DNA of 38,145 nucleotides from Meiothermus rufus DSM 22234 (lineage in GTDB: Bacteria; Deinococcota; Deinococci; Deinococcales; Thermaceae): NCBI RefSeq assembly GCF_000423425.1, contig NZ_AUHY01000024.1, positions 1 to 38,145 of the forward strand, in the 5' to 3' direction. The position numbers and the translations under genes are program-made. Below the pieces are notes generated by a model, which was not told where the DNA came from, did no database searches, and was given only the letters and a program-made list of their open reading frames with translations. Shown piece by piece: positions 12,676-37,694 of this stretch (positions within the stretch are counted from its first letter, which is position 1; every line of letters begins with the position of its first letter).

Positions 12676-13060
12676 CGAGCCACCGCCTCTTCATCGCCTC
12701 CCGCTGCACCCGCAGGAGGGGCTCCAAATCCCAGTACTCGCGCACTACCCGTGAAACATAGCAGCCCAGGCAGAAACCAGCCCGTTGGTAGACGACCCGG
12801 TTGGCCCGCACCACCTCGAAGGCCAGCACCAGCGGGGCATGGTTCAAAACCAGCAGGTCTACCCGCTCGAAACCCGCCTTCACTAAATCGGTGAGCAGAT
12901 CTAGCGTAGGGTCGGGCTCTGGGGGTTCTAGGTACACCGCCAAGTCCCAATCGCTAGCCGCTCGAGCCTGGCCACGGGCGCGCGAACCGAACAAAAAAGC
13001 CGCCTGCACCTGGGGATAGCGGGCAAACAGCACGCCGAGCGGTTGGGAAGATCTCCCCAT
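12662..13060 (-). CDS. mntA: MntA-like minimal nucleotidyltransferase (antitoxin-like)
   Basis: The protein has 132 residues from the ATG at 13060. It carries the polymerase-beta-fold motif GSx10DxD as GSRARGQARAASDWD (residues 25-40), the metal and nucleotide site of minimal nucleotidyltransferases, and a possible third acidic residue in ERVDLLVLN. In known type VII modules this enzyme adds AMP groups to HepT to silence it. The C-terminal end is basic and extends beyond the domain (REAMKRRWLGDPA). The frame is open to a GTG at 13126, but ATG 13060 is preferred because TACCCT lies 6 nt upstream, the leaderless spacing seen elsewhere in the window. Confidence 0.8.
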   Translation of the reverse strand: MGRSSQPLGVLFARYPQVQAAFLFGSRARGQARAASDWDLAVYLEPPEPDPTLDLLTDLVKAGFERVDLLVLNHAPLVLAFEVVRANRVVYQRAGFCLGCYVSRVVREYWDLEPLLRVQREAMKRRWLGDPA

Positions 13061-13066
13061 ACCCTT

Positions 13067-13072
13067 AGGGTA
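13067..13072 (-). promoter_or_regulatory. -10 box of the mntA-hepT module
   Basis: TACCCT on the minus strand ends 6 nt before the ATG at 13060, predicting a leaderless transcript. No clear -35 box is seen. Confidence 0.4.
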
Positions 13073-13170
13073 GCGCAACCGGACGTGGCCCCTGGGCGCT
13101 GGCGCAAAAGGGCCTCGAGGCGGCACGGCAGAAGGGCGTTCATCCTTGAAATTCCGACATTGCGATGCTT

Positions 13171-16429: not shown

Positions 16430-17029
16430 GTGAAGGTTTTGGTTACCGGCTTTGAACCCTTTGCCGGCTTGGCACACAACCCCAGCCAGGCCCTGCTGGC
16501 CCACCTGCCCCCGCGCATAAGAGGGACAGAAGTTGTTTCAGCCTGCCTCCCCGTGAACGCCCAGCAGGCCCCAGCAGCGCTAAAAGCCCTCTACCAGACT
16601 CACACCCCCCGGCTGGCCCTGCACCTGGGGTTGGCCCAAAACCGCCCTTTGCTCAGCCTCGAGCGCCTGGCGGTGAACCTGCTCGACTTTGACATCCCCG
16701 ACAACGGCGGGCACCACCCCAAAGACGCCCCCATTCTGCCCGGGGGCCCACTGGCCCTGCTTAGCCGGCTGCCCCTTCGCATAATCCAGGCCCGCTGGGC
16801 CCAGGCTGGCATTCCCAGCACGCTGAGCAACAGCGCGGGGCTTTACCTGTGCAATCAGGTAATGTACCTGGCCCTTTCCTGGCTGCCCCCCGAGGTGCCC
16901 GCCGGCTTCATCCACCTCCCGCCGGATGAAACCCTGGCTGCCCAACGCCCCCAGGCCTACGTACCCCTGAAGACCCAGGCCCAGGCCATCCTCCTGGCGC
17001 TGGAGACCTGCCTCGAGGCCCTGGCATGA
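16430..17029 (+). CDS. pcp: Pyroglutamyl-peptidase I (pyrrolidone-carboxylate peptidase)
   Basis: The protein has 199 residues, within the C15 cysteine peptidase family range. It removes N-terminal pyroglutamate from peptides in the cytoplasm. The catalytic triad is visible: E78 in SLERLAVN, C141 in SNSAGLYLCNQ, and H162 in GFIHLPP. The N-terminus MKVLVTGFEPFAG is typical. The GTG start lies 6 nt after a TAAACT box and has no ribosome site. Its TGA overlaps the ATG of the next gene by 4 bp, so the two are translationally coupled, although no functional link to glycosyltransferases is obvious. Confidence 0.93.
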   Translation: MKVLVTGFEPFAGLAHNPSQALLAHLPPRIRGTEVVSACLPVNAQQAPAALKALYQTHTPRLALHLGLAQNRPLLSLERLAVNLLDFDIPDNGGHHPKDAPILPGGPLALLSRLPLRIIQARWAQAGIPSTLSNSAGLYLCNQVMYLALSWLPPEVPAGFIHLPPDETLAAQRPQAYVPLKTQAQAILLALETCLEALA

Positions 17030-18213
17030 ACGACCTGCTGGTAATTTCCGGGGGCAACGCCGAGGATTTGATCGGGGCCACGCTATGCGACCACCTGAGC
17101 GGGCTTTCGCTGTGGGCTTTGCCGCTGGTGGGGGCCGGCTGGCGCTACGAGGGCCGGGTTGAGCAGATCCTAGGCCCCCGTACCCAGATGCCCTCCGGTG
17201 GCTTTCCTTTCAACAGCCTGGAGAACCTGCTGGCCGACTTGCGGGCCGGTTTGGCCACGGAAATCTTCAGCCAAATACGGGCGGCCCAGGTCGCTCGCCG
17301 AAGGATTCGCGCGGTAGCCGCGGTGGGCGACGCCTACACCCTGGCGGTAGCCTGTGTGGCCTCGGACTGGGGCCGGCTGCCGCTATTTCACCTCCAGCCG
17401 CAAATTTCCCACTACTACTGGGCTGGGCGCAGCACCTGGGAGCGCCTGAAACAGCTAAACCAGTTTGGCGCCGAAGACTATCTGTTCTACGAGCGCTGGA
17501 TGCACCGCTTCGTGCGGGCGGTATATGTGCGGGACCGGCTGAGCGAAGAACGGGCCCATCGGTTAGGTATGCACAAGGCCCGCTTTGTGGGCAGCATGGC
17601 CATGGACACCCTGGGCCCCCCTGAGCGCGACCTAGAGAGCCTGCTGGATGGCCGGCCAGTGCTGGTGCTGCTCCCGGGCACCCGAGGCGATGTGCGGTTT
17701 AGCCTGCCCCTCATGCTGCAAAGCGCCGCCCTGCTCCCGGAGATGCAGGCTTTGGTGGCCTGGGCTGGCGATTTTGCCCAGGTGCCCCTGGCCCAGGGCT
17801 GGTCGCTCAGCGTGCTGGATGAACAAACCGCTATTGCCCAGCAAGGCCCACAGCGGGTCTGGCTCTTGCGAGGGGCTTTCTCGGCCATTTTGCACGTGGG
17901 TCAGGTGGTCATCGGCACCGCCGGCACCGCCAACGAGCAGGCCGCTGGGATGGGCCTCCCGGTGGTGGCCTTTCCCACGCCGGGGCCGCAGTACACCTAT
18001 CCAAACGCCTTGCGACAAAGCCGCCTCCTGGGCAAGGCCCTGGCGCTGGTCGAGGCCCACCCCACCCAGGTGGCCGAGGCGGTGCGCGAACGCCTGCACA
18101 ACCCCCGCCTGCGGGAGGAGGCCCGGCGGGATGGCCTCGAGCGCAACGGGCCCCCGGGGGCACTGCCCCAGATTGCCCATGAGATTCGCCAGACTTTGGC
18201 CTCGTCTGGGTAG
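17026..18213 (+). CDS. Lipid-A-disaccharide-synthase-related glycosyltransferase (TIGR03492-like)
   Basis: This 395-residue protein resembles the LpxB-related family found in cyanobacteria and Deinococcota, organisms whose lipid A pathway is absent or incomplete. Features are the N-terminal ISGGNAEDLIGA, a first Rossmann-like half, and a C-terminal GT-B half with LVLLPGTRGDVRFSLPLML and the donor-site stretch VIGTAGTANEQAAGMGLPVVAFPTPGPQYTY, here noted in pieces (VIGTAGTANEQ, AAGMGLPVVAF). Acceptor and sugar are unknown. It overlaps pcp by 4 bp and is followed after 5 nt by another glycosyltransferase, which suggests a role in envelope glycolipids. Confidence 0.8.
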   Translation: MNDLLVISGGNAEDLIGATLCDHLSGLSLWALPLVGAGWRYEGRVEQILGPRTQMPSGGFPFNSLENLLADLRAGLATEIFSQIRAAQVARRRIRAVAAVGDAYTLAVACVASDWGRLPLFHLQPQISHYYWAGRSTWERLKQLNQFGAEDYLFYERWMHRFVRAVYVRDRLSEERAHRLGMHKARFVGSMAMDTLGPPERDLESLLDGRPVLVLLPGTRGDVRFSLPLMLQSAALLPEMQALVAWAGDFAQVPLAQGWSLSVLDEQTAIAQQGPQRVWLLRGAFSAILHVGQVVIGTAGTANEQAAGMGLPVVAFPTPGPQYTYPNALRQSRLLGKALALVEAHPTQVAEAVRERLHNPRLREEARRDGLERNGPPGALPQIAHEIRQTLASSG

Positions 18214-18218
18214 CGCTT

Positions 18219-19091
18219 ATGGAAAAAGTTTTGGCTCTGGTTGTCACCCATAACCGCAAGGCCCTATTAGAGGAATGCTTGGCCGCCCTGAGCCGGCAAA
18301 CCTACCCACCCGCCCACATCCTGGTGGTGGACAACGCCTCCAGCGATGGCACCGCTGAGCTGTTGGCGGGCTATCCCCAGGTAGAGCACCTACGTTTGGA
18401 AAAAAACCTGGGGGCGGCAGGGGGCTTCCACCACGGCCTGCGGGTGGCGCGAGAAAGGCCTTTTGACTGGATATGGCTCCTCGACGACGACGCCCACCCC
18501 GAGCCGCAGAGCCTGCAAAAACTGATGGACGGGCTGGAGCGGGCCCGCCGGCTGGGCATCGAACCCAACCTGCTGCTCAGCCGCCTGGTCTGGACCGACG
18601 GGCGCATCCACCCCATGGGCCTCCCCTGGCCCGACCTGCGGCGGCCTTGGCTCTGGCTAAAGAGTCGGCCTTTGCAGCTGGTACCGGTACGCTTCGGCAC
18701 CTATGCTTCCATGCTGGTCAGCCGCCGAGCGGCCCAGGTGCACCCCCTGCCCACCCAAGCCTACTTTCTCTGGAACGACGACCTCGAGTACAGCGGTCGG
18801 CTGCTGCGCCGAGGGGTGGGCTTCTTGGTGCCACAGAGCGTGGTGGTACACAAAACCCGCGACCCCTATAGCTCAGCCCTTCAAACCAGCGACGAGCAGT
18901 TTTACCTCGAGGCCCGCAATCGGGCCTGGTTAGTGCGCTCCGATGCTTTTGGTCCCTTGGGCAAAACCTTCTGGACGCTAAACAGCCTGGGGCTTTTCCT
19001 GGATCGCCTACGCCGGCGGGGCTTTTCGGGCCTCGAGGTGATCCTGCGGGGGTGGCTCGAGGGCTGGCGCAACCCTCCGCGAAGTGAGTAG
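18219..19091 (+). CDS. Family 2 glycosyltransferase
   Basis: The protein has 290 residues and a GT-A fold: N-terminal ALVVTHNRKALLEECLAAL, the nucleotide-binding VVDNASSDGT, the metal-binding acidic motif WLLDDDAHPEP (about residues 86-96), and a later FLWNDDLEYSGRL acceptor/base motif. The layout matches rhamnosyl- and galactofuranosyl-transferases (GlfT2-like), but the sugar cannot be assigned. There is no membrane segment. It begins 5 nt after the previous stop without a ribosome site, so it is probably in the pcp operon and coupled to its neighbour. Confidence 0.88.
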   Translation: MEKVLALVVTHNRKALLEECLAALSRQTYPPAHILVVDNASSDGTAELLAGYPQVEHLRLEKNLGAAGGFHHGLRVARERPFDWIWLLDDDAHPEPQSLQKLMDGLERARRLGIEPNLLLSRLVWTDGRIHPMGLPWPDLRRPWLWLKSRPLQLVPVRFGTYASMLVSRRAAQVHPLPTQAYFLWNDDLEYSGRLLRRGVGFLVPQSVVVHKTRDPYSSALQTSDEQFYLEARNRAWLVRSDAFGPLGKTFWTLNSLGLFLDRLRRRGFSGLEVILRGWLEGWRNPPRSE

Positions 19092-19101
19092 GGGGGTATG
19101 C

Positions 19102-19107
19102 TAACAT
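19102..19107 (+). promoter_or_regulatory. -10 box of the family 4 glycosyltransferase gene
   Basis: TAACAT ends 6 nt before the GTG at 19114; an overlapping TATGCT lies at 19097-19102. The spacing predicts a leaderless transcript. Confidence 0.45.
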
Positions 19108-19113
19108 ATCCCC

Positions 19114-20313
19114 GTGCGCCTATATCGCGTCGGCCTATTTACCGACACCTATCTACCGGGGCCCAACGGGGTGGCCACCAGCGTCTACTTGCTCAAGCGC
19201 GAGCTACGCCGCATGGGCCATGAAGCTTGGGTGCTAGCCCCCGAGATGCCCGATGTCGACCCTCGCGAGGAGGGGGTGGTACGGGTGCCCAGCGTACCCT
19301 ACCCCTTCTTTGAAAACCAGCGGCTGGCCATGCCCAGCAGCCGCTACCTTCCCACCGAATTCGAGATTTTCCACACCCATACCCCGCTTTTCATCGGCAT
19401 CTGGGGTGCCCGATTGGCCCAGCGGCAGCACCTACCGCATGTCTCCACCTTCCACACCCACCTGGAAAAATACGCTCACTATATCCCCGGCGTGGCGGCT
19501 ATCAACAAATACGTGGGTATCATGCAGAAGGTCTGCCAAGCCTTCTACAACCGGGCCGATGTGGTCATCGCCCCTACCGAGCCGGTTAAGCGCCTGGCCG
19601 AGAGCTACGAGATCGAGCGGGAGATCCGGGTGGTGCCTACCGGGATCGACCTCGAGCTTTTACAAGCGGCCCCACTGCCGGCCTCGCCCTGGCCTTCTGG
19701 GCAGCGTCGCCTGCTGCACGTGGGCCGGTTGGGCAAGGAGAAAAGCGTGGACGTGGTGATCCGGGCTTTGGCCGAGATACGCCAGGAGCAAGAAGCCCAC
19801 CTAGCCCTCATCGGTATGGGGCCACAGGAGGAAGAGTTGCGGCAATTGGCCCTAGAGCTGGGCCTGCTCGAGCACATCACCTTTGTGGGTGCTGTTCCCT
19901 ACGAGAAAATCGGGGGCTACTACCAGATGGCCGAACTCTTCCTATTCGCTAGCGAAACCGAAACCCAAGGCTTGGTGCTATGGGAGGCCCAGGCCATGGG
20001 CGTCCCCGTGGTGGCAGTGGGCGCTGAGGGCACGCTGCAAGGGGTCGATGAGGGCAAAAGCGGCTACCTGGTTCCCCCGGGCGACCCCCGGGCCTTGGCC
20101 CGGCGGGCCTTGGAACTGCTACAGGATGAGGCCTTGCGCCAGCGCTTCAGCGAAGGAGCCCGCCGCTTCGCCGATCAGCGCACGGCCCGCCGCATTGCTG
20201 AGCAGATTGTCGAGGTCTACGACGAGGCCACCTGGCTGGTGCAGGTCGAGCCGCGCCGGCTCAAGATTCCCTTCCCCCGCCTGCCGCAAAATATCCCGAC
20301 GAGTCCCCGCTGA
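19114..20313 (+). CDS. Family 4 glycosyltransferase (diacylglycerol glucosyltransferase-like)
   Basis: This GT-B protein of 399 residues begins [20 protein letters not shown], the pattern of 1,2-diacylglycerol and sulfolipid glycosyltransferases. HTHTPLFIG and [13 protein letters not shown] are acceptor-side motifs, VPTGID and [12 protein letters not shown] mark the second Rossmann domain, and the donor motif EX7E is present in [13 protein letters not shown]. Thermus and Meiothermus membranes are dominated by glycosyl diacylglycerols, so a role in the first sugar transfer to diacylglycerol is plausible but unproven. Its 3' end overlaps the convergent glycosyltransferase gene by 53 bp. Confidence 0.85.
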
Positions 20314-20944
20314 GGTTGCGCGCATGCTGCCACAGGAAGTGCAGCCAGCCTTTGCTTAGGCGGCGAGCCGAAGTCCGTACTAATGCATCGTGCACGTAGC
20401 GAACCCGGCCCCTTTCTTGCAGCTTCCAGCCCAGTATAACATCCTCTCGAGCCTCCACCATCGGGTAGCCCCCTAGTTCTAGGGCAGTCTGGCGGTGAAA
20501 GGCCATGTTGGCCCCAGCCAGATTGGGCCGGCCCAGCAAGCGCATCAGTTTGAGAAAAACCCCATAGCCTAGCTCGGTTAACTCCTCCTGCCAAACTGGC
20601 AGTCCAAACATGCGCAGCGGGCCATAGAGGGCCACGTGGGTGGGCATGTGCGGCGCCAGCGCGGACAGCCAGCCTGGGGTGGGGCGGCTATCGGCATCGG
20701 TGGTGGCCACCCAGTCACCGGTGGCGGCCTCGAGGCCGGCCTGGCGAGCCTGGGCCACCCCAGGGGTGGGGCAGTGAACCACCCGGGCTCCTAACGCTGC
20801 CGCCAACAAAGCGGTGCGGTCGGTGGAGGCGTTGTCCACCACAATCACCTCGTCCGGTGGGCGGGTCTGGCGCTTTAGCGCCTCTAGGCAGCCGACAATA
20901 AAGGCCTCTTCATTGCGGGCGGGAATCACCACGGAAATTCGCAC
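20261..20944 (-). CDS. Family 2 glycosyltransferase
   Basis: This 227-residue GT-A protein has [14 protein letters not shown] at the N-terminus, [12 protein letters not shown], and the metal-binding TTDADSRP near residues 81-88. [16 protein letters not shown] is the expected late acidic motif. It resembles small polyprenol- or carotenoid-linked GT2 enzymes, but the substrate is not identifiable. GTG 20944 is supported by the immediate conserved N-terminus and by a TAGAGT box 6 nt upstream. Only 16 bp separate it from the divergent MFS gene, and its end overlaps the convergent family 4 enzyme gene by 53 bp. Confidence 0.88.
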
Positions 20945-20945
20945 A

Positions 20946-20956
20946 GGTATACTCTA
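20946..20956. promoter_or_regulatory. Interlocked divergent -10 boxes
   Basis: In the 16 bp between the two start codons the plus strand has TATACT (20948-20953), 7 nt before GTG 20961. The minus strand has TAGAGT (20956-20951), 6 nt before GTG 20944. The two boxes overlap by 3 bp, so both genes would be leaderless and their promoters mutually exclusive. Any -35 contacts would lie inside the opposite coding region. Confidence 0.5.
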
Positions 20957-20960
20957 AGCC

Positions 20961-22136
20961 GTGCGCCTTAAGTTACAACGTCTCTCCCCCTGGCGCCTCA
21001 AAGGATTCTCGGCAGTAGCCCGACTGATTCTGGCCTGGGGATTGCTCGAAGGAGTTCGCAACGGATTCTACGCCGGGTATCTGGCCATCCACGGGGGGAA
21101 CCTGGGCTTCTCTTTAGCGGTCATCGGCACTGCTTGGAGCGTTCACCTGCTTTCCGACAGCTTCAGCAAAACCCTTGGCGGCTACCTCTCGCAAAAGCTG
21201 GGCCTGGGGTGGGTCACCCTGCTGGGCGGAACGATGGGACTTCTGGTTTTGCTTATCGCCCCCTACACCCCCTATCCGCTGGTTTTTTTCACCCTGAGCC
21301 TGCTGTGGGGGGTCTCGCTTTCCGCCATCTTTCCCGGTTTGCTTACCCTGAGCAGCCAGATGGCCCAGCCAGGGCGGGAAGGCCGGGCGGTGACCCTAAC
21401 CAACCTGCTTACGGCCCCCTGGACCGGCCTAGGAGTGCTGGGGGTGGGCTTTCTCACCAAGCTCAACCCGGGCCTGGCCCTGCACGTGCTCGAGGCCGCC
21501 CAGCTCACAGCCATTCTGCTGGGTCTGTCCCTCATCTTCCGCCCCGCCCGGGTACGCCCCCCAAGGCAGGAACTCTACCCCTGGCAACGGCTCTTACTTT
21601 TCATTCCCGCGGCCTTTGGGCAGACCTTTGCCCCCGCTCTGTTCGGCTTCTACATCCTGAAATACGCCCAAAACCTGGGGCTCAGCATGTTCTGGATTGT
21701 GGTCTTGATTGGGGTGGGCGGGGTGGTGTCGGCGGGGCTATTGGTGTGGACCGGGCGACACGCCGACCGCAAAAGCCCTCGAGGGCTCTTGATTGGCGGG
21801 CTGGCCCTGATTGGTCTGGCCATGATCGGCCTGGGCCTCAAGCCCCCCCTGGCCTGGCTCTTTCCCCTGGCCCTGGTGGCCGGGGTGGGCTTTGGCTGCT
21901 TCGGCCCTGGCTGGAACGCTTTAGTGGTACGACTCTTGCCGGAAAACAACCGGGCCGCCGCCTGGGGCACCCTGATGACCGTGGAGGGGCTGGGCTTTGC
22001 CCTGGGCCCGGCAGCCGGTGGCCTGCTGGCCGCAACCATCGCCGATAACGCCCCCTTCTTCCTGGGGGGAAGCATTATGCTCTTGCTGAGTGGGTTTTAC
22101 GTCGTGGCCCTATGGAGACCCTGGTGGAAATCCTGA
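20961..22136 (+). CDS. Major facilitator superfamily transporter
   Basis: The protein has 391 residues and about 11-12 hydrophobic helices through its length, the normal MFS size. Charged loops such as RPARVRPPRQE mark the centre, and GRHADRKSPRG matches the MFS loop motif between helices of the second half. The cargo is unknown. The context (glycosyltransferases and a polysaccharide deacetylase) favours a sugar-, lipid- or drug-exporter type role. GTG 20961 follows a TATACT box by 7 nt. Its last 25 bp overlap the deacetylase gene, implying co-translation. Confidence 0.88.
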   Translation: MRLKLQRLSPWRLKGFSAVARLILAWGLLEGVRNGFYAGYLAIHGGNLGFSLAVIGTAWSVHLLSDSFSKTLGGYLSQKLGLGWVTLLGGTMGLLVLLIAPYTPYPLVFFTLSLLWGVSLSAIFPGLLTLSSQMAQPGREGRAVTLTNLLTAPWTGLGVLGVGFLTKLNPGLALHVLEAAQLTAILLGLSLIFRPARVRPPRQELYPWQRLLLFIPAAFGQTFAPALFGFYILKYAQNLGLSMFWIVVLIGVGGVVSAGLLVWTGRHADRKSPRGLLIGGLALIGLAMIGLGLKPPLAWLFPLALVAGVGFGCFGPGWNALVVRLLPENNRAAAWGTLMTVEGLGFALGPAAGGLLAATIADNAPFFLGGSIMLLLSGFYVVALWRPWWKS

Positions 22137-23266
22137 CTGGAATTGCCTTGCTGTACGGCCTGGCCTGGGTGCTGGGGAGCTGGATGGGCCTGGGCAGCCT
22201 GGCCTGGGGAAGCCGGGCCCAGCCCCAGATAGCCCTTACCTTCGACGATGGGCCATCCCCAAAGACCGAGGCCCTGCTGGCCCTGCTAGACCGCTACGGG
22301 GTGCGGGCCACCTTTTTCCTGACCGGCCAACGCGCCGAGCAGTACCCCCATCTGGTGGAAAAAATCCGCCAGGCGGGGCACCAGATCGAGGCCCACGGCT
22401 ACTGGCACCGGCCCGCCATCCTGATGGCCCCCTGGACCGAGTGGGTGCAGATTGCCCGCAGCCCGGGCCGGCTTTACCGCCCCCCCTGGGGCATCGTCTC
22501 GCCGTTTACTTACTGGTTTGCCCGCTGGCAGGGCAAGCAGGTGGCCTTATGGGACCTCGAGTCCAAGGACTGGCTAGAGCAGCCGCCAGAAGCCCTGGTG
22601 AAGCGGATGCTGTTTTACGTCAAGGGGGGCTCGGTGTTGCTCCTGCACGACGGGCCCGAGCGCACCCTGGCCATCCTCGAGCAGCTTCTGCCTTTGCTTT
22701 TGCAAAACGGCTACCAGCCGGTGCGCATGGACGAACTAGAGCTTGCCCCTTTGGGGCCACGCCAGGCCCTGATCCGGGCCAGCCAGGGAGCGGAAGAGCG
22801 CTACGATCAGCAGAAAGGCTGCCTCAGGGTAAGCTTTCGCTACGACCATATCCTGCGCCTCGAGCTACAAAGCTACCCCGGCCCGGCCCTGCCCGGCTTC
22901 CCCCCGGGCACCCCTTGCGCCCAGATTCACCTGGAGTCGGCCCGTATCGCTGAACTCAGCACCATGCAGGTCATCCGGGCCTTCCGTCAGACCTTTGCTG
23001 AAGTGGCCCGTTTCCTAGAAGCCCACCCCGAGGTGCAATTCCTCTACGGCTACAGCTACCTTGGCCCTGCAGCCAAAACCCTAGGCTTCCAGACCCACCC
23101 CCTCCCTCCCCTGGCCGCGCTAGAGTCCAAGCTGAGTACAGCCTGGTTTACCTGGCTGTACCGGGGGCAGGTGGCCCGCCACCTTTTCAGCAATCCAGCG
23201 GAAATCCTCTACATCACTCGGGAAACCATCCTGAGCCGCTACAAGCCCCTTAAAAACGGAAGTTAA
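22112..23266 (+). CDS. Polysaccharide deacetylase with C-terminal YkoP-like domain
   Basis: The 384 residues start with a membrane anchor (about 7-30), followed by a NodB carbohydrate-esterase-4 domain: TFDDGP with D45 and D46, HGYWHRP supplying H95 and H99, the RPPWG motif near 123-127, and LLLHDG with H179. These residues bind a divalent metal and remove N-acetyl groups from glycans such as peptidoglycan. From about residue 215 a second alpha/beta region resembles the YkoP-like domain attached to some deacetylases. The enzyme probably acts on the outer face of the inner membrane. Its gene overlaps the MFS gene by 25 bp and the convergent tamB-like gene by 17 bp. Confidence 0.88.
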   Translation: METLVEILTGIALLYGLAWVLGSWMGLGSLAWGSRAQPQIALTFDDGPSPKTEALLALLDRYGVRATFFLTGQRAEQYPHLVEKIRQAGHQIEAHGYWHRPAILMAPWTEWVQIARSPGRLYRPPWGIVSPFTYWFARWQGKQVALWDLESKDWLEQPPEALVKRMLFYVKGGSVLLLHDGPERTLAILEQLLPLLLQNGYQPVRMDELELAPLGPRQALIRASQGAEERYDQQKGCLRVSFRYDHILRLELQSYPGPALPGFPPGTPCAQIHLESARIAELSTMQVIRAFRQTFAEVARFLEAHPEVQFLYGYSYLGPAAKTLGFQTHPLPPLAALESKLSTAWFTWLYRGQVARHLFSNPAEILYITRETILSRYKPLKNGS

Positions 23267-26200
23267 AGCCCAGACCGAAGCGAACCCCATCGCTACGCAA
23301 ACCGTCGCCGATACCGGTGGCTAGGTCGAAGGTCAGCTCGGTGCCTGGGCGCAGAGTGTAGCCTAGCGATAGCTCCGGTCTGGGGAGGGGAAAGATATCG
23401 GTGCTGAAGCGGAAGCGGAAGTCGCCTTGCTGGTACTCGGCAAAGATAGTCTGAAAGCCACGTAAGTCCACACTGTAGGCGAAAAACAGCTCGGGCGAGA
23501 GGTAGCGCCCAATGGTGAAGCGGGTCTCCTCCAAGCCTCCCCCGCTCAGGGCGGGGATTTCCACCTTGACTTGATCTAAGCCCAGTACCCTGGCCAGCTC
23601 GCGCTCGAGCTGCCCCACGATGAAGTTTTGCACCGCCGCTTGCAACCCAGTCTGGGCGATGTCGGCTGGCAGGGCCGATAGATCGGAGCGGCCCAGAAGC
23701 AGTAGGGCGTATATCTCGGCATCGGTATAGGGCTCTCCATCGCTTTTGCGGGCCACATCCCCGTTGCTGCGGGCCACAAAGGTGGGGCTTAGGTTGACCT
23801 TAATGCGGCCATTCTGCCTTAAAAAAGCCCCCTTGAGGGTCAGGTTGACCTGAATGCGTCGGTTATCCTGCCCCCGGTCCTGCACCACGGTATCGGCCAC
23901 GATCTGCAGCTCGGGCAGAATACCCTCGGCAGGGCTGAAGCGGGCGTAGCTGCGCTCCTCCGGCGAACGGTCGCGAATGGTAAAGTCGCGATCCCACAGC
24001 TTAAAGCTACCACGCAAGGGCACCACCTCCCCCGAAAGGAAGGGGTTGCTGAAATCGCCATTGAGGTAGAGCTCGCCCGCCAGCTCGCCCTGGGCCAGCG
24101 ACTCCTGGATCAGAATGCCCCGTTCGGCTTTGAGGCGGATGTTGCTGAACTCCACAGGAACCGGAGCGGTGGCTGGGGTTGCCTCAGGAGCGGCGATCGA
24201 GACCTCTCGCACCCCCTCCGGCAGACCCAGCCGGGCCCGGAGCACGTCCACCGAACCCTGGACGATATAGGCCCCGCGCTGATAGCGCAAGAACAGGTTG
24301 GTGTCGAGCAGGCCCTCGAGCAGGTAGTACCGTGGGTAACTGACCGGTACCTGTCCCTGCAAAGCCAGGATGAGCTGAGGGAAAACGATACCCGCCAGAC
24401 GGGCGTTTTGGCGCTCGAGGCGGGCATCGAGGGTGTAGGCGGGATAGCCAAAGGTCAGAACGAAAGGCTCGTTGGCACTCAACAAGGGCAGGTCGGCAGT
24501 TCCCCTAGCCCGCACCACAAAGCGGCGGAGGTCTCCCTCCCCAGATAGCTCGGCCTGGGCAGGGTAGGGGGCAAAGAGCTGCAGGCGGCCCTCGGCACTG
24601 GCACTGTCCCCCACCCGCAACACCGCCCGAGGGGTCTGGCCCCGCACCGGCCCCAAGCGGAAGCTAAAGTCCTCCAAGGTGAGGTCGAAAACCTCGCCAC
24701 TGGAGGAAAGGCGCACCGTTCCGCTACCCTCGGGGGTGAGAGGCTTGAGGTTGGGAATGACTTGCAGTACCGGGGTAAAGGAGGTGTTTTCTAGGTTGAG
24801 CCGCAGGTTGCTGCCCCGCCGCCCATAGTAGCCCGACCCACTCCAAGTGCCCTTGCCTGAAAGCGCCAGCTGATCGATGTAAAGCCGCTCTCGCTCGAAG
24901 CGCAAAGCCGCTTGGCCTACCAGGGTGTCGCCCCCACCCTGGAAGCGTAAGTACTCCCCTACCCAGACACCCTTAGAGGCCCAGGGGTCTTGCAAATCGA
25001 TGTGGAAGGTGGTTCTACCGGTCCAGTAGGCTTGCCCCGCCAGATCGCCAGCCCAAGCAGAAAGCAGCCAGTGTAGGGGAAAGGCGGCTGCTACCGCTTC
25101 CCCACTCAAGCGGCCATTCTCCAACTTGAGCCGGGCCGTAGTGCGGTTGGCGCTTAGGAGCGCACCCCCATCGCTTCGCTCGAGGTCGAGCTCAGCCTGC
25201 CAAGCCCCCCGCTGGTAGCGGCCCCGCAGATGGGTGGCCAGGGCCAGATCGTCCCCCTGAACCCGCAAACCAGGGCTTTGCAGGTCGAATTCCAGCCGAC
25301 CCTGATCGAGGGTCAGAAGGCCGCTGACCCGCCCCTTGAGGAAAGGCAGCCCGCGCTGTACCTGGGGCACTTCCTCCAGGGCCAGGTCGCGAAAACTGGC
25401 CCTGGCTTTCAACGCTGGGGCCAGACGAGCCTCGAGGGCTAAGCGGCCCAACTCACCCGCTAAAAAGCCCTGGGCCCGTAGGGCTTGCTGCCCCTCCAAG
25501 GTTAGCTGCAACTGGCTACCTAGGGGCTCTAGGGGGGCCTCCAGGTGGAGGCGGCCCTGCCAGTCGCCTTGGCCGTTGTAGCGCAGCTCGCCCTGAAGCC
25601 AGGGCCCCTGGGCCTCGAAGTGGGCCTCGAGGAGGCGCCCCTGGGCCTCGAGGCGCTGCCGGGCCTCTGGGTCTTGGTAAGCCAGGCGCCAGGCTCCTTC
25701 GAGGTTGAGCTGTCCCTGCAACCCCCCTTGGCCCCAGGGCAGCCAGGGGGTCTCGGGGTGACGCATCTGTAGCTGAAGCTGCGAACCGGCCCCCTCCAGC
25801 AGCCAGTCCAGCCCAAACACGCTCAGCCGAAGGGCCCCCTCGAGTGCCCCCTGCCACCAGCGCAGAGCACCGCTGCCCAGCTCGGGCGCGCTCAGCTCTA
25901 CGGCCAGGCTCTTTAGGTCCAAAGCGGCCTGCAGGCGCCCCCCAGCCAAAGGGTAAGCCGCCTCCAGCAGCGGCCCCTGGCCCTGCAAGGTGAGGCCCTC
26001 CAGGGCCAGCTCCCCCGAGGCGCTGCGCTCGGCCAGGTTCAGCTCGAGGCCTCCCCCCGGCTCCGCAGCCACCCAAAGCCGCGGGTAGTCCAGGCGCACC
26101 TTTTGCCCCAGCAGCTCCCCGGTCACCACCGGGGTGGTGGGGCCGGAGAACTCAAGGAAGCCCTCGCGCAAGGCCAGCCGGCCCCACCAGGCCCCCGCAT

Positions 26201-29200
26201 ACCCCAGCTCGCCTGCCAGGTCGCCCGCCAGGTGGGCCTGAAGCTGGCCTTGCTGCCAGGTGGCCTGCAGGCTCCCACTGCGCCCCAAAGCCTCCCAGCG
26301 CAAAGCTCCCTCGAGGCTGCTCCAGGCCCCCCCTAGCCGTCCCCCCAGCCGCAGGCCACTCAGGTTGTAGTTTTCCAGCTCGGCCTCGAGGCCCTCTGGG
26401 CTCAGGCGGGCCCGAAGCCCTGGGGCGCTGAGCCCAAGCTGGGCCCCCTGGCCCTCCAGGTTCAGGGTCTGACCGGCCACCTCGTAGCGGCCCACCGCCC
26501 AGCGACCGGGGTAGACTCCCTGGGCCTCGAGGCGGCCCAACCCACGCGGAAGGGCTCCAGCGTATACCCAGCCCACCTGCAAGGGGTTGAGCTCTGCCCG
26601 GAGGAATAAAGGCTCCAGCCCCTCCTGGCCCTGTACCACCACCCCCGCCCCCTGGGCGCGAAGGGCCAGGCTACCCCAGCCTGGGAGGTCTAGCCTTCCC
26701 GCGCCCTCCAGGCTCAGCGGGGCCGCCTCGAGGTCGAAACGGCCCTCCAGAAAAGCCCCCGCCCAGGGCGAGGCCAGGCCAACCTCGAGGGCCCAGCGGG
26801 TAGGCTGTGCCCAGCCCTGCGCCAGCCAGGCCCTCAGGCGGCCTTGCCAGCCCCCCCGCCCTTCCAGCCGAACCTGCCCCTCGGCCAAATCGGCCTCTCC
26901 CACCAGGCTCCCTTGGGGTAGAGGCAGCTCCAGCGCCAGCAGGCCCTGGGGAGGCCCGCCCGCCCAGCGGGCCGTGCCCACGGCGTAGGGGCCTTCCAGC
27001 CGCAGCTCTAGCCCCTGCTGGTAGGCTAGAGCAAAGCGCTGCTCGGCATAGTGCCCGGCCAACTCGAGCTCTAGCCCCGCAGGATAAAGCTGTCCCCTGG
27101 CCTCGAGGTTTTCCCCATACAAGTGCAGGGGCAGGCGCAAGCCCTCCCAGGGGCCCTGGCCTTGGGCTTCCAGACGAAAAGGTAGACCGGTAAAGGGCTT
27201 TAGGTCGCTGTCCACCCGCAGGGCCAAGACCCCATCCTCCAGGCGGGCGGAAAACCCGCTCCCCTCAGCCCGGGCCCAAGGCCCTTCTTTGGCCTGGTAG
27301 CCAAACTGCAAGGCCACCTCAGCCCCTTGGCCCACCAGGCGGCCCTGCCCTTCCAGCTCCGGGGCCCACAGACGACCCAAAAGGGCGGCTTGGGCCTCGA
27401 GCCGGCTAGGGCCCAGGCCCAGGGCATAGCGGGCCTGGCCGCTGAGGCTGCCCTGGCGGTCGGTGCGGGCCTCGAGGTCGGCCTGAAAGACCCGGCCCCG
27501 AGCCCGCAAAACCCTATCCTGCCCCAGAAATTCCAGGGCCACCTGCTCACCCAAAAGCTGCATCCGCCCAGCGAAGCGTTGACCCACCAGGGCCATCTGG
27601 CCCGAAAGGGCCAGGGGGCGCTGGGCCAGCTCAAGCACCCCCTGCCCTGCCAAGAGGAGGCTTTCCAGCTCAACCCCCTGCCCCCCTGCCTCCAGCCGCA
27701 AAGGGGCTGCCCAGGCGAAGCGCCAGCGGGCCCCCTCCCCCTCCAGGCGCAATGCCCCCCCTTGCCGCAGGTACTGCTGGCTTTCCAGCCAGCCGCTGGC
27801 CTGGTAGCGCAGGCCCTGGCTCTGGAGGTTCAGCCGGGCCTGGGCGTAGGGGCTTTGTAGGATGAGCTGGGCCTCTCCCTGGCCTTTGCTCAAGATGTAC
27901 CCCCCCTGAGCCTCTAGGGTGGCCCAGGGGCTATGGGCCTGCACCACTAAGGTGGGTTGCCCTAGAGCCCCTCCTACCTGGGCTTCCAGCTCGAGGCCAC
28001 CCCGGCGGTAGGCCAGCCCGCCCGCTAACTCCGGGCCTATCTCCAAGCGGCCTTCCAACGCACCCGTCCCCGAAAGCTGCACGGGCTGGCCTGGGGCCCA
28101 GGCCAACACCACCCCGGCCTGGTACTGGGGGGAAAAGGCCGAAAGGGATCGGTCTTTGTAGTTTAGCTCAAGGGGCTGCCCGTAAAGCCGCAACGCGCCT
28201 TCTGCCTCGCCTTCGGGCCAAGCCACCCCACCTGTCCCCCACAGCCCCGCCAAGCTCAGCCGGCCCTGCAAGCGGCCCTCTAACCCGAGGTTGAAGAGGC
28301 GAGCCAAAGGGGCCGTCTCGAGGTCGAAAACCAGCCGGGCCTCGGCCAGGCGCACCTGGCCTTCTGGCAAGGTCAGGGTGGCCTGCCAGCGCTCCAGGCT
28401 GGCCCCTTCCGTTTGCAGGCGAGCCCCTAGGGGCAGACCCGCTAGGTCGGTGCGGAGCTGGGCCTCCAGCCTGAGGGCCTCCCCTTCCAGATGGCCTTGC
28501 AGCACACCCCGCTGCTCCAGCAGCCAGTAGGGCCAGTCCAGCCGGCCCCGGTAGGCCAGCCCCCGCCCCTCCAGGGCCAAGGGCCCCTCCAGCCGCCAGG
28601 TCTGGGTCTGTGCCTCGGCCCAGAGGCGCCAAGGGCGGCCTTCCAGGTAGGGAAGGTGGTAGCGGCCCTGGCCCTGGGCCTCGAGGCCACCCCAGGGCCC
28701 CGCCACCTCGAGGGTGCCTTCCAGGTAGGGCAGGTTCAAGTGACCCGAAAGGGCCAGGCCCGCTAACCCTACCGTGCCGCGCATGGTTCCATAAGGGCTT
28801 TGCACCTCTAGCTGCAAAGGCCCCAGCAAGCTCGAGCCGCTGAGCTGAGCCTGAGCGTAGGGGCTATCCAAGCTTAGACGCCCCCCCTGCTCCGACCAGC
28901 GGCCCCATAGGCGGCCCGGCAGGCCCAGACCGCTCAGGTCAAAGCCATTGGCCATGGCCCGCAAACGCAAGCCATCCGTATACCCTCCCGCCAAAGCCAA
29001 CCGGCCCTGCTGAAACTGCCCGGAGAAGTCCAGACGGGCCCCCTGCCCATGGAAGGTTACCCCTCCTTCCAGCCGGGGTACTTGCAGGCGGCCTTGGTAG
29101 GTCAGACTCAACAGGTCAGCCTGGCCTTGCAACGCCCCCGTGTAGCCAGCGTAGGCCAGGCGGCCTTGCAAAGGCAAGCTACGCCAGGCCCCCTCTCCCC

Positions 29201-31481
29201 CTAGAGCCCCATACGGCGTATGCAGTTCTAGCCGGCCCCGCTCCAGGTTGCCCCGGGCGGTTAGGCTGGCCGGCGCCCCATTGACCTGTAGGGGCAGGGT
29301 CCCGCTAAAGGGCAGCCCCGCCTGGAAGGCCACCTGCCCTCCGGGCCAGCGCACCCCACGCCGATCCACCTCCAGCGGCACCTCTGCCACCTTTAGCGGC
29401 CCCGAAAAAGGCAGGGTCAGGCGCCCTTTGAGGCCAAGGTTCGGCCAGAGCGGGCCAGCCAGCCGAGCATAGCCCTGGGCCTCGGCCCATAGCATAGCCC
29501 CGCGCCCTTCCAACCACCCCCGCAACCAAGGGGATTGGAAGCGCACCTGGCCCAGGTAGCGCCCCCCCTGTAGGCCCAGATCGGCCTCCAGGGCAATTTG
29601 CGGACCAAGGGCCAGCGGGCCTTGCAGCCTGAGCCCATCCGCATCGGCAGAGATGCGCAGGGTCTCGAGCCGGGCCTCTACCCCAGAGGCATCGGCCACT
29701 CCGGACAGCGGCAGCACCCGCAAAGGGGTGCGCACCTCGCCCTGGTAGCGGGTGGCCAGCTCAGATAGCTCACCTTGAAGGCTTACCCTCTCGCTTTCCA
29801 GTCGCCAACCGCCAGAAAGCGCCCCTTTGGCGTAGCGCACCTGGCCTGAAAGGCGAAAGGCCTCGAGGATTTGCAAAGGTAGCCCCCACACCCCTAAGGT
29901 GAAGACCCCATCCCGGTAAACCCCCTCGGCCCAGCGGTTGCTTAGGCGCCAGGCCCCGCCGTCCTGCCGCAAGGCGATGGGAAAACGGGCATAGGGGGAG
30001 TCGTACTGCAACGCACCGCTGAAGCGCCCGTTTCTGAGCCGCGCCTGACCGGTAAGCTGACCCACCATCAGCGCCAAAGGCTCCAACCCCAGCCCCAGGT
30101 CGTCCCAGGTGCCGCTTAGTACCACCCCCCCCAGCCGGCCTTGCACCCTGGGACCTTCCCCCACCAGGCTGCCCGAGAGGCTGAAGGGTTTGGCCAGGGG
30201 CAGGCCCACCCCCTCCGAGCGCACCCCTAGCTGCCAGCGGGCCCCCTGGCTGGCAAAGCGCAACCCGGCCTGGCCCAGAAGGGGGCGGGGCCAGACCAGG
30301 GTGCCCTCAGCCTGGGTCTGGGCCCCCTGGCCCTGTAGGCGCAGTTGGCTACCCAGGCTGTCGCGCAGGGCTACGCTGTAGGTATCGCTGCGCAGAGCCG
30401 CGCTGGCCTGGTAGCTGCGGTCGAAAAAGGCCCCCTCTACTACAGCGTCGAGCTGGAATTTCTGGTCGAAGGCCAGCGTCCCTCGGTAGCGCAGAGGCTC
30501 GCCCAAAAGGCGCCCTTCCCCGTTGTAACGCCCCTGGAGTACCAAATTCTGCCAACCCTGGCCTTCCAACCACAAAGGCCCTCCCCCGCTTACCGGCAAA
30601 CGCAGGCCGAAGTGTTGGGCCAGGGCGCTCAGCCTGGGGGTTCCCTCCACCCGGAAGCGATAGTGCTGCTGGGAGAGGTTCACCGTGCCCTCACCACGAA
30701 GGGGGCCTTCCAGGCCTCGAGCCTTCAGGCGGGCCGTCACGACCTCGCCGTCGAAGTCCACGCTGCCAGCAACCTGGTCCAGGGTAAACCCTACCAGCTT
30801 GACCGTGGCGTCTTTTACCTGGTTGCGGCCCAGAATCCCGTTTTTGACCTTGGGGCCAACAATCCAAGTGCCCTCGAGCTCTCCCGCCTCGAGGCCATCG
30901 AACCAGTAGCGCCCCGCGCGCAAGTCGCCTTTGGCCTCAATCCGCCAGGCCTCAAACTCCCGCCCGGTACGCCAGACCGTGGCGCTAAGCTTTCCGTCGG
31001 GCAGCTCGAGCCGAACCTGGTAGGGGCCCTTCCCTCGCACCACGGCCCGCAGGGTGGGCAAGAAAAATTTCTGGCTTTGCGCAATGTGCACCCCCACCCG
31101 ATCCAGCACCAGCTCGTCTACACGCAGCCGAAAAGGGGAAGGGGGGCCTGGCTCGTGCCTTTCCGGGATGATGGCCTCCCAGTGCAGGAAAACCTCACCC
31201 TCCTGGGCCCAAATCCGCAGAGGCAGCTCGCGGCGCAACAAACTCAACAGGTTGTAGCCCACGCGCAGGCGCTGGGCCTCGAGGGCTATCCCCTGCCCCT
31301 CGAGGCGAACCCCTCTGAGCTCGAGGCCGGCCAGCAAGTACCCCCCTACCGCTTGCCACTGCCCCCTAAATTGAGCGGCTTTCAGTCCTTCTTGCAAAAG
31401 GTACTCGGTAAAAGGTGGAAAAGCGGGGAGCGCCACCAGCAGGCCAAGCAAAAATGCCGGAATCCAGCGCCCAAATCGCAC
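23250..31481 (-). CDS. tamB: Giant TamB-like (DUF490) translocation and assembly module protein
   Basis: The protein has 2743 residues, more than twice E. coli TamB (1259). An N-terminal signal anchor (WIPAFLLGLLVALPAF, about 6-21) is followed by a short AsmA/TamB-like start (GLELRGVRLEG). A very long region of short beta-strand repeats rich in Gly, Leu, Gln and Glu follows (recurring LEGQGRL, LEAQGPW). The conserved TamB C-terminal domain covers about 2350-2743, with GSFKLWDRDFTIRD, SDGEPYTDAEIYALLLLG and the terminal GLGFNFRF. TamB-family proteins form a hydrophobic groove across the periplasm and are now thought to carry lipids to the outer membrane. No TamA/BamA gene is adjacent. GTG 31481 is 6 nt after TAGACT. 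The gene is intact over 8.2 kb. Confidence 0.9.
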   Translation of the reverse strand: MRFGRWIPAFLLGLLVALPAFPPFTEYLLQEGLKAAQFRGQWQAVGGYLLAGLELRGVRLEGQGIALEAQRLRVGYNLLSLLRRELPLRIWAQEGEVFLHWEAIIPERHEPGPPSPFRLRVDELVLDRVGVHIAQSQKFFLPTLRAVVRGKGPYQVRLELPDGKLSATVWRTGREFEAWRIEAKGDLRAGRYWFDGLEAGELEGTWIVGPKVKNGILGRNQVKDATVKLVGFTLDQVAGSVDFDGEVVTARLKARGLEGPLRGEGTVNLSQQHYRFRVEGTPRLSALAQHFGLRLPVSGGGPLWLEGQGWQNLVLQGRYNGEGRLLGEPLRYRGTLAFDQKFQLDAVVEGAFFDRSYQASAALRSDTYSVALRDSLGSQLRLQGQGAQTQAEGTLVWPRPLLGQAGLRFASQGARWQLGVRSEGVGLPLAKPFSLSGSLVGEGPRVQGRLGGVVLSGTWDDLGLGLEPLALMVGQLTGQARLRNGRFSGALQYDSPYARFPIALRQDGGAWRLSNRWAEGVYRDGVFTLGVWGLPLQILEAFRLSGQVRYAKGALSGGWRLESERVSLQGELSELATRYQGEVRTPLRVLPLSGVADASGVEARLETLRISADADGLRLQGPLALGPQIALEADLGLQGGRYLGQVRFQSPWLRGWLEGRGAMLWAEAQGYARLAGPLWPNLGLKGRLTLPFSGPLKVAEVPLEVDRRGVRWPGGQVAFQAGLPFSGTLPLQVNGAPASLTARGNLERGRLELHTPYGALGGEGAWRSLPLQGRLAYAGYTGALQGQADLLSLTYQGRLQVPRLEGGVTFHGQGARLDFSGQFQQGRLALAGGYTDGLRLRAMANGFDLSGLGLPGRLWGRWSEQGGRLSLDSPYAQAQLSGSSLLGPLQLEVQSPYGTMRGTVGLAGLALSGHLNLPYLEGTLEVAGPWGGLEAQGQGRYHLPYLEGRPWRLWAEAQTQTWRLEGPLALEGRGLAYRGRLDWPYWLLEQRGVLQGHLEGEALRLEAQLRTDLAGLPLGARLQTEGASLERWQATLTLPEGQVRLAEARLVFDLETAPLARLFNLGLEGRLQGRLSLAGLWGTGGVAWPEGEAEGALRLYGQPLELNYKDRSLSAFSPQYQAGVVLAWAPGQPVQLSGTGALEGRLEIGPELAGGLAYRRGGLELEAQVGGALGQPTLVVQAHSPWATLEAQGGYILSKGQGEAQLILQSPYAQARLNLQSQGLRYQASGWLESQQYLRQGGALRLEGEGARWRFAWAAPLRLEAGGQGVELESLLLAGQGVLELAQRPLALSGQMALVGQRFAGRMQLLGEQVALEFLGQDRVLRARGRVFQADLEARTDRQGSLSGQARYALGLGPSRLEAQAALLGRLWAPELEGQGRLVGQGAEVALQFGYQAKEGPWARAEGSGFSARLEDGVLALRVDSDLKPFTGLPFRLEAQGQGPWEGLRLPLHLYGENLEARGQLYPAGLELELAGHYAEQRFALAYQQGLELRLEGPYAVGTARWAGGPPQGLLALELPLPQGSLVGEADLAEGQVRLEGRGGWQGRLRAWLAQGWAQPTRWALEVGLASPWAGAFLEGRFDLEAAPLSLEGAGRLDLPGWGSLALRAQGAGVVVQGQEGLEPLFLRAELNPLQVGWVYAGALPRGLGRLEAQGVYPGRWAVGRYEVAGQTLNLEGQGAQLGLSAPGLRARLSPEGLEAELENYNLSGLRLGGRLGGAWSSLEGALRWEALGRSGSLQATWQQGQLQAHLAGDLAGELGYAGAWWGRLALREGFLEFSGPTTPVVTGELLGQKVRLDYPRLWVAAEPGGGLELNLAERSASGELALEGLTLQGQGPLLEAAYPLAGGRLQAALDLKSLAVELSAPELGSGALRWWQGALEGALRLSVFGLDWLLEGAGSQLQLQMRHPETPWLPWGQGGLQGQLNLEGAWRLAYQDPEARQRLEAQGRLLEAHFEAQGPWLQGELRYNGQGDWQGRLHLEAPLEPLGSQLQLTLEGQQALRAQGFLAGELGRLALEARLAPALKARASFRDLALEEVPQVQRGLPFLKGRVSGLLTLDQGRLEFDLQSPGLRVQGDDLALATHLRGRYQRGAWQAELDLERSDGGALLSANRTTARLKLENGRLSGEAVAAAFPLHWLLSAWAGDLAGQAYWTGRTTFHIDLQDPWASKGVWVGEYLRFQGGGDTLVGQAALRFERERLYIDQLALSGKGTWSGSGYYGRRGSNLRLNLENTSFTPVLQVIPNLKPLTPEGSGTVRLSSSGEVFDLTLEDFSFRLGPVRGQTPRAVLRVGDSASAEGRLQLFAPYPAQAELSGEGDLRRFVVRARGTADLPLLSANEPFVLTFGYPAYTLDARLERQNARLAGIVFPQLILALQGQVPVSYPRYYLLEGLLDTNLFLRYQRGAYIVQGSVDVLRARLGLPEGVREVSIAAPEATPATAPVPVEFSNIRLKAERGILIQESLAQGELAGELYLNGDFSNPFLSGEVVPLRGSFKLWDRDFTIRDRSPEERSYARFSPAEGILPELQIVADTVVQDRGQDNRRIQVNLTLKGAFLRQNGRIKVNLSPTFVARSNGDVARKSDGEPYTDAEIYALLLLGRSDLSALPADIAQTGLQAAVQNFIVGQLERELARVLGLDQVKVEIPALSGGGLEETRFTIGRYLSPELFFAYSVDLRGFQTIFAEYQQGDFRFRFSTDIFPLPRPELSLGYTLRPGTELTFDLATGIGDGLRSDGVRFGLGFNFRF

Positions 31482-31594: not shown

Positions 31595-31861
31595 ATGCCG
31601 CGGATTACCGTACTGGTCAGCGGACGGGTGCAGGGGGTGGGCTACCGCTACTTCACCCGCCAGAAGGCCCTGGAGCTTGGCTTAGCCGGTTACGCCGAAA
31701 ACCTCCCGGACGGGCGGGTAGAGGTGGTGGCTGAGGGCGGCAAGGACGAACTCGAGCACCTGATCCACCACCTGCGCCAAGGACCCCGAGGAGCCTGGGT
31801 TGCCCAGGTGGATGTCCAGTGGAGCCAGGCCACCGGCCTCAAGGGGTTTCAAATCTTCTGA
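31595..31861 (+). CDS. acyP: Acylphosphatase
   Basis: The 88-residue cytoplasmic enzyme has the family's standard length and both catalytic residues: R18 in RVQGVGYR, which binds the phosphate, and N36 in [11 protein letters not shown], which positions the attacking water. It hydrolyses acyl phosphates such as acetyl phosphate or 1,3-bisphosphoglycerate. It starts at an ATG 6 nt after TAGATT without a ribosome site. The last 23 bp overlap the end of the convergent hflX gene. Confidence 0.95.
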
Positions 31862-34758: not shown

Positions 34759-35244
34759 TCAGCGCTTGAAGCGATCCAGCGAGGATAGGTAGCCTTCCAG
34801 CAGGGCCTTGAACTGGCTTATGAACAGGTCGCGCTCGTTACGCACCTGCTCGATGTCGCTTTTGATGCGCTTCATCTGCTCGACGAGTTCCTGCAAAGCT
34901 GCCTGGCGCTCGGCCTCGGTCTCGCGCCGGATGAGTTCGGCCTCGCGCTCGGCCTGGGCCTTAATCTCGCGGGCAATCCGCTCGGCGGCCACCACCGCCC
35001 GCTTGAGTTCGGCCTCGCCCTCACGGGACTTGGCCAGCTCGGCCTCGAGTTCGCGAATACGGCTGCGCAAGCGTTCGTTCTCCTCAATCAGCCCGGTCTG
35101 AAGGTCAGCCACCCGGGCTAAGTATTCCCGCACCTCGGCCACCACGTAGCCCCTTAGCCCCTGGCGAAACTCCTGGTAGCGGATGTCCAGCGGTGTTAGC
35201 TCTGCCCGCTCCATACGAAACTCACCCGTTGCGCGCTCATCCAT
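34759..35244 (-). CDS. DivIVA-like coiled-coil protein
   Basis: The 161 residues contain the DivIVA N-domain pattern LTPLDIRYQEFRQGLRGYVVAEVREYL (about 16-42, the short form of the membrane-curvature-binding head) followed by a long heptad-rich coiled coil rich in Glu, Arg and Ala up to about residue 140. DivIVA proteins sit at negatively curved membrane at poles and septa and recruit division or wall-synthesis proteins. ATG 35244 is preferred because TAGGCT is 6 nt upstream; an internal ATG at 35214 with GGTGAG upstream is the alternative. The start overlaps the end of the nucleotidyltransferase gene by 8 bp. Confidence 0.85.
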   Translation of the reverse strand: MDERATGEFRMERAELTPLDIRYQEFRQGLRGYVVAEVREYLARVADLQTGLIEENERLRSRIRELEAELAKSREGEAELKRAVVAAERIAREIKAQAEREAELIRRETEAERQAALQELVEQMKRIKSDIEQVRNERDLFISQFKALLEGYLSSLDRFKR

Positions 35245-37539: not shown

Positions 37540-37616
37540 TGGTGGCTATGGGCGGACTCGAACCGCCGACACCACGATTATGAGTCGTGTGCTCTAACCG
37601 GCTGAGCTACATAGCC
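37540..37616 (-). tRNA. tRNA-Met (CAT), elongator
   Basis: The 77-nt cloverleaf has acceptor arms GGCTATG/CATAGCC, discriminator A and encoded CCA (37542-37540). The D-arm is GCTC..GAGC, the anticodon stem-loop ACGACTCATAATCGT has anticodon CAT, and the T-arm is GGCGG-TTCGAGT-CCGCC. The sequence closely follows the E. coli elongator Met tRNA, so Met is preferred over lysidine-type Ile2, which also has a CAT anticodon gene. It is 1 nt downstream of the initiator tRNA. Confidence 0.93.
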
Positions 37617-37617
37617 G

Positions 37618-37694
<77 letters not shown>

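Follow-up and report, generated by a model that had tools for sequence, protein, structure and literature searches.

In the Nod factor pathway of NodC, NodB and NodA, a NodB-type de-N-acetylation is followed by long-chain N-acylation of the glucosamine amine. Lipid A synthesis proceeds by deacetylation through LpxC and N-acylation through LpxD, after which the transferase LpxB acts, and the teicoplanin acyltransferase places a long acyl chain on a glucosamine amine. The teicoplanin deacetylase is of the LmbE/PIG-L type, according to the accessible text of PMC4101496.

The glycolipid of T. thermophilus HB8 is given in the accessible part of PMC3398001 as Galf(b1-2)Galp(a1-6)GlcpNacyl(b1-2)Glcp(a1)acyl2Gro, and extracts of PMC3035268 and PMC3035272 describe the lipids of M. 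ruber and M. silvanus as being of the dihexosyl-N-acylhexosaminyl-hexosyl-DAG kind. The enzymes that provide the third chain in T. thermophilus are stated to be unidentified in the available sections of PMC9636437, which also report PGLN, with an unacetylated glucosamine, in strain HB8. In O. profundus, the accessible text of PMC3111992 reports a PGL-like phospholipid, with glycolipids not detected, while that of PMC3072082 reports glycolipids and phospholipids from Truepera, there without comparison to those of the Thermales.

The locus described here encodes a 384 aa protein, P0006, which is a fusion of a NodB and a YkoP domain. We infer that it is a fused HexNAc de-N-acetylase and N-acyltransferase, making it a candidate for the third-chain step of Thermus glycolipids. 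NodB-type deacetylation followed by long-chain N-acylation would liken it to the Nod factor pathway, although P0006 would unite both activities in a single polypeptide, with a membrane glycolipid as its substrate. The teicoplanin deacetylase and acyltransferase would resemble it in taking an acetyl group off and putting a long acyl group on at a glucosamine amine, but they differ in using an LmbE/PIG-L rather than a CE4 deacetylase, in being separate proteins and in acting on another substrate. The order of deacetylation, N-acylation and LpxB-family transfer would also recall lipid A, from which the proposed pathway differs in the enzyme families of the first two steps and in its diacylglycerol anchor; moreover, LpxC had no match in any genome of the Thermus-type genus (g4).

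Genomes and searches

The window, i.e. the whole 38,145-nucleotide stretch of DNA that was analysed, is contig C22 of genome G000 (genus g1, family f1). It was compared across 111 genomes of the phylum, comprising 50 from f1, the window's own family, which we take as Thermaceae, and 4, 4, 14 and 39 from f2, f3, f4 and f5, respectively. Family f1 includes the genomes matched to M. ruber (G031) and M. silvanus (G023), while G011, of genus g13, is the match for O. profundus. The search thresholds were 1e-10 for P0006, 1e-20 for the MFS, 1e-30 for GT2b and 1e-70 for GT4. Synteny was read on 40 loci and later tabulated on 54, which come from every f1 genome except G042 (49 of 50) and from 5 of the 14 genomes of f4. 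Domain scans with Pfam and NCBIfam covered ten proteins of the window.

Gene content of the locus

The original prediction had placed an LpxB-related protein, two GT2 enzymes, a GT4, an MFS permease, a NodB deacetylase and a giant TamB-like protein in one contiguous stretch. Open reading frames and profile scans recovered every one of these genes, but the stretch is of mixed strands, with GT2b and TamB encoded on the minus strand, and Pcp stands at its start. The placement of those two genes rules out reading the window as a single operon. YkoP, the second domain of the NodB protein, was absent from that prediction.

The plus-strand run opens with Pcp, a pyroglutamyl peptidase (16430..17029; PF01470), which in many of the 54 tabulated loci separates Mfd from the cluster and is probably outside the pathway. 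Next on the plus strand are an LpxB-related glycosyltransferase (17026..18213; TIGR03492 at 323 bits, above the cut-off of 219), the GlfT1-like GT2a (18219..19091; NF050113 at 82.8 bits, below the cut-off of 330) and the core GT4 (19114..20313), whose best NCBIfam match is Mgs, an alpha-monoglucosyl-DAG synthase (NF049988; 131.7 bits, below the cut-off of 400). Core GT2b, a proposed beta-(1-2) N-acetylhexosaminyltransferase, occupies 20261..20944 on the minus strand. The plus strand then resumes with the core MFS, P0005 (20961..22136), for which the best NCBIfam match was LtaA (NF047396) at 60.4 bits, below its cut-off of 450, and with P0006. Residues 1-208 of the latter (22112..22735) hold an N-terminal membrane helix and the CE4/NodB domain (PF01522), and residues 209-384 (22736..23266) hold the YkoP domain (PF22790; 32.8 bits, above the gathering threshold of 27). 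The 2743 aa TamB (23250..31481, minus strand) scored 76.5 bits against PF04357, above the cut-off of 22.4, and 31.1 bits against the NCBIfam equivalog NF047952, below the cut-off of 825. Its gene is convergent with that of the NodB protein, and the two overlap by 17 bp.

Several other features of the window were recorded in passing. A promoter-like pattern at 20948 was read off the sequence and picked post hoc, and carries no weight. Two small gene pairs on the minus strand (12262-13126 and 35237-35969) look by eye like HEPN and nucleotidyltransferase (MNT) genes, and a small plus-strand open frame between TamB and HflX (31595-31860), also named by eye, is acylphosphatase-like. Two tandem tRNA-Met(CAT) genes, with one base between them, lie at 37540-37694 on the minus strand.

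The NodB-YkoP protein

The NodB half of P0006 scored 82.9 bits against Polysacc_deac_1, well above the cut-off of 23.1. Residues D45, D46, H95, H99, R123 and H179, which belong to the CE4 catalytic motifs, were invariant in 16 sequences. A model of the full protein had a mean pLDDT of 80.4, and its top matches among solved folds were CE4 enzymes.

The YkoP domain alone was modelled with AlphaFold2 from 12 sequences (pLDDT 88.5, pTM 0.82); H273, G325 and F326 were invariant in that alignment. A Foldseek search of this model against the PDB returned nothing at E ≤0.001. Its best match was 4q36, an acyltransferase with octanoyl-CoA and teicoplanin (E 0.011), followed by 4mfk, an acyltransferase with decanoyl-CoA (0.018), and 4mfj, an acyltransferase (0.054). 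We take all three entries to be the teicoplanin acyltransferase, which acylates glucosamine. The other matches among those listed were mostly GNAT proteins by title, including FeeM and LasI, apart from two RNase E entries, which are not GNAT. With VIA-align the best Z was 9.2 (7byy), with Z of at least 8 in 7 of 999 chains and a Z of 6.6 at rank 50, against a yardstick by which models without a clear match usually peak at Z 7 to 8 and reach 4 to 5 at rank 50. This supports, without proving, a GNAT-like fold, which is what the model predicts for the YkoP half. A profile search of the PDB sequences with YkoP returned nothing at E values up to 10.

The N-terminal helix of P0006 was compared across 33 rows, namely P0006 itself and those 32 of the 40 loci that scored at least 250 bits, the 8 weaker ones being excluded. 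In all 33 there was no K or R before the helix, and between 1 and 4 within the 15 residues after it. Under the positive-inside rule, by which the positively charged flank of a membrane helix stays inside, this charge pattern suggests that both domains would face the cytoplasm, the site of acyl donors. In the open PMC literature on YkoP and on Thermus glycolipid genes, we found no study assigning the genes described here, although one may exist elsewhere. A B. subtilis Fur study is among the papers that mention YkoP.

A putative glycolipid flippase

The best PDB sequence match of P0005 was 6s7v (E 7.8e-15), whose table entry is titled MFS transporter and which is presumably LtaA; NorA followed at about 1e-4. 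According to the accessible text of PMC8866510, residues E32, R35 and D68 of LtaA are charged pocket positions. They align with E30, R33 and D66 of P0005 (chain offset by 15). Across 26 rows, made up of P0005 plus the 25 loci that scored at least 90 bits, the glutamate and the arginine were each kept in 26 of 26, and the third site held D in 17 and E in 9. P0005 thus resembles S. aureus LtaA in its best PDB sequence match and in the three retained pocket charges, but differs from it in its score of 60 bits, where the equivalog cut-off is 450, and in the two pocket tryptophans, which were not conserved in these 26 rows. On this sequence comparison, we propose that P0005 would act as an LtaA-like glycolipid flippase.

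A contig scan for NodB-YkoP returned at least 80 loci, among which one was from Thermaceae by title and 11 had a YkoP match. In ten Bacillota NodB-YkoP loci among the matches listed, the gene immediately upstream is an LtaA-like MFS in two (at 174.5 and 143.1 bits, below the cut-off of 450) and resembles a diglucosyl-DAG synthase in a third (at 284 bits, below the cut-off of 500). These three loci are L074, L077 and L081. Three others have a divergent YtvI-like gene, and the remaining four are without a resolved neighbour.

Conservation of the core genes

Four genes form the core (GT4, GT2b, the MFS and NodB-YkoP), and they co-occur across f1, including the M. ruber and M. silvanus matches. 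NodB, MFS and GT2b were each found in all 50 f1 genomes and GT4 in 49, the single genome without a GT4 match having a contig that ends beside GT2b. Across the phylum, YkoP was matched in 62, MFS in 64, GT2b in 59 and GT4 in 56 of the 111 genomes. P0006 matches at 1e-10 occur in 78 of 111, a count that takes in other NodB proteins, those of f3 and f5 included. Four f1 genomes (G048, G062, G066 and G069) missed the YkoP threshold, yet their P0006 matches reach residue 380. YkoP, MFS, GT2b and GT4 were matched in none of the 43 genomes of f3 and f5 at the thresholds used, although weaker relatives may exist. Since glycolipids have been reported from Truepera, the absence of the core genes from f5 need not mean the absence of glycolipids.

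In eight genus-mates of the window the MFS is kept although it lies apart from NodB, and there it is still beside the LpxB-related gene, GT2a or slotA. The opposite strand of GT2b, seen in the window and in many relatives, counts against the pathway proposed below. In genus g13, a diverged NodB-YkoP was found in 6 of 6 genomes and the MFS in 5 of 6, with no match for GT4 or GT2b, which indicates that NodB-YkoP and the MFS can serve another lipid.

The upstream transferase slot

Varying transferases fill the stretch between Mfd/Pcp and the core. In the 54 tabulated loci this slot holds an LpxB-related gene in 31 and a GT4 (slotC or slotE) in 17, with neither in the fetched stretch of the other 6. 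An intact LpxB-related gene and an intact slotC or slotE were found together in none of the 54; one locus (G045) pairs an LpxB-related gene with a slotC lacking its N-terminal part. For three of the genomes with neither (G033 and the M. silvanus-type G023 and G024), a gene of this kind is located elsewhere in the genome. The two slot types interchange at least 10 times when mapped onto an Mfd tree (43 rows) and at least 12 times when mapped onto a GT4 tree (41 rows), counts that are rough because both were quick trees with many weak forks. We propose that the LpxB-related protein is a third-sugar transferase, interchangeable with the slotC or slotE GT4, and that GT2a is the fourth-sugar transferase.

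Six loci (G019, G045, G064, G069, G070 and G071) combine a UDP-Gal mutase (GLF), a GT2a-like gene and the core, and five of these have an intact slotC or slotE GT4. A GT2a homologue adjoins UDP-Gal mutase in 18 genomes, comprising these six cluster loci and twelve with the pair elsewhere. The genome of the window has its mutase on a different contig, where no GT2a match adjoins it.

TIGR03492 was matched in 80 and LpxC in 61 of the 111 genomes. The latter include the window genome (G000:C12:29567-30313) and 60 others, spread over 17 of the 18 genomes of the Meiothermus-like genus g1, g2, g3, f3, most of f5, and G009; absence of LpxC from the whole of f1 was considered and ruled out, as Meiothermus-like genomes carry it. 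Most LpxC genomes have an additional LpxB-related copy outside the cluster. A TIGR03492 tree was built on 41 selected rows. Its 20 cluster copies group in a single clade (100/100) with four copies that are not part of a complete cluster, one of which adjoins an MFS. Eight further copies, all from LpxC-bearing genomes, form a separate clade (100/100). Because the cluster clade is separate from the copies of LpxC genomes, we infer that the cluster LpxB-related copy is a recruited paralogue. LpxB chemistry yields a 1-6 linkage, and by analogy we would guess that the LpxB-related enzyme might form one as well.

Proposed pathway and alternative explanations

Taken as a pathway of core and slot genes, the locus quite probably produces the N-acyl-hexosaminyl glycolipids found in Thermaceae. 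Synthesis would take place on the cytoplasmic face. There, an alpha-glucose would be placed on diacylglycerol by the core GT4, and GT2b would then attach a beta-N-acetylhexosamine. The CE4 domain of P0006 would strip the acetyl group from this hexosamine, and its GNAT-like YkoP domain would N-acylate the freed amine with a long chain, the third hydrophobic chain of the lipid. The swappable transferase (LpxB-related in the window, a GT4 elsewhere) would add a third sugar, GT2a or another glycosyltransferase would attach the fourth, and the LtaA-like MFS would finally flip the finished lipid. Gene content, co-occurrence, the conserved catalytic and pocket residues, the predicted GNAT-like fold and the slot swapping were computed, whereas all substrates, the step order, the use of CoA or ACP as acyl donor and the direction in which the lipid is flipped are proposals.

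GT4 enzymes are retaining and GT2 enzymes inverting. The cluster version with slotC GT4, GLF, GT2a and the core would thus provide a transferase of fitting type for every bond of the T. thermophilus HB8 lipid, with two GT4 for its two alpha bonds and two GT2 for its two beta bonds. The M. ruber match has four transferases (LpxB-related, GT2a, GT4 and GT2b) for the four-sugar lipid described in the text available for that species. Gene content agrees with lipid content in the small sample of three species compared: all four core genes are present in the matches to the glycolipid makers M. ruber and M. silvanus, and the O. profundus match keeps NodB-YkoP and the MFS with no match for GT4 or GT2b at the thresholds used.

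Alternatively, P0006 might mainly convert a phosphoglycolipid of the GlcNAc-glyceroyl-alkylamine type, PGL, into the free-amine PGLN, leaving another enzyme to N-acylate the neutral glycolipid. Such a role would suit the unacetylated glucosamine of PGLN in T. thermophilus HB8, as reported in the accessible part of PMC9636437, and the O. profundus match, whose diverged NodB-YkoP and MFS are kept in a species with a PGL-like phospholipid and, by the available account, no glycolipids. We nevertheless regard it as unlikely, given that the P0006 orthologue is clustered with GT4 and GT2b in most f1 loci examined and that it is not evident what an acyltransferase domain would do in producing a free amine. 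It is very unlikely that the cluster instead builds a surface polysaccharide or secondary cell-wall polymer deacetylated by NodB: GT2, GT4 and NodB genes are indeed frequent in polysaccharide loci, but LtaA, the flippase that matches best, acts on glycolipids, none of the ten window proteins scanned is a polymerase, and in both number and type the transferases of one cluster version fit a four-sugar lipid. The O. profundus match also speaks against it, lacking a GT4 or GT2b match in a species reported, in the part of the source available, to be without glycolipids.

Glycolipid synthesis with de-N-acetylation of a hexosamine, as in the original prediction, is well supported by inference from co-occurrence, the UDP-Gal mutase in some cluster versions, the LtaA-like flippase, the predicted N-acyltransferase domain and the lipids of relatives. 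Its further claim that TamB is functionally tied to the cluster as the glycolipid exporter appears distinctly improbable. As a general function, bridge-like transport of lipids is plausible for TamB-type proteins, and TamB carrying lipid from a distant locus would be compatible with the synteny data. However, TamB is found in 106 of the 111 phylum genomes, with and without the core and including f3 and f5, and by coordinates it adjoins the NodB gene in just 6 of the 50 f1 genomes, the window's and those of five relatives (G000, G034, G035, G040, G041 and G042); in G029 a contig edge interrupts the region. G037 carries the same cluster with TamB more than 200 kb away, and in the M. ruber match (L165) TamB has HflX as its neighbour, the 20 kb examined there containing none of the glycolipid genes. 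The link is therefore unsupported, TamB was rejected as a pathway member on synteny, and it is probably a chance neighbour of the cluster.

Implications for the Thermaceae envelope

The glycolipid pathway proposed above supplies a named candidate for the third-chain step, a function for YkoP that can be tested and, for the family as a whole, a correspondence between gene cassettes and sugar structures. On a broader view, to which we give an even chance, NodB-YkoP would be a fused cytoplasmic N-acyl switch, exchanging acetyl for long acyl on a glycolipid amino sugar, and the occurrence of NodB-YkoP in Bacillota would predict N-acyl glycolipids there. The Thermaceae would then have arrived at a three-chain, lipid-A-like envelope lipid from CE4, GNAT and LtaA-type parts and a recruited LpxB paralogue.
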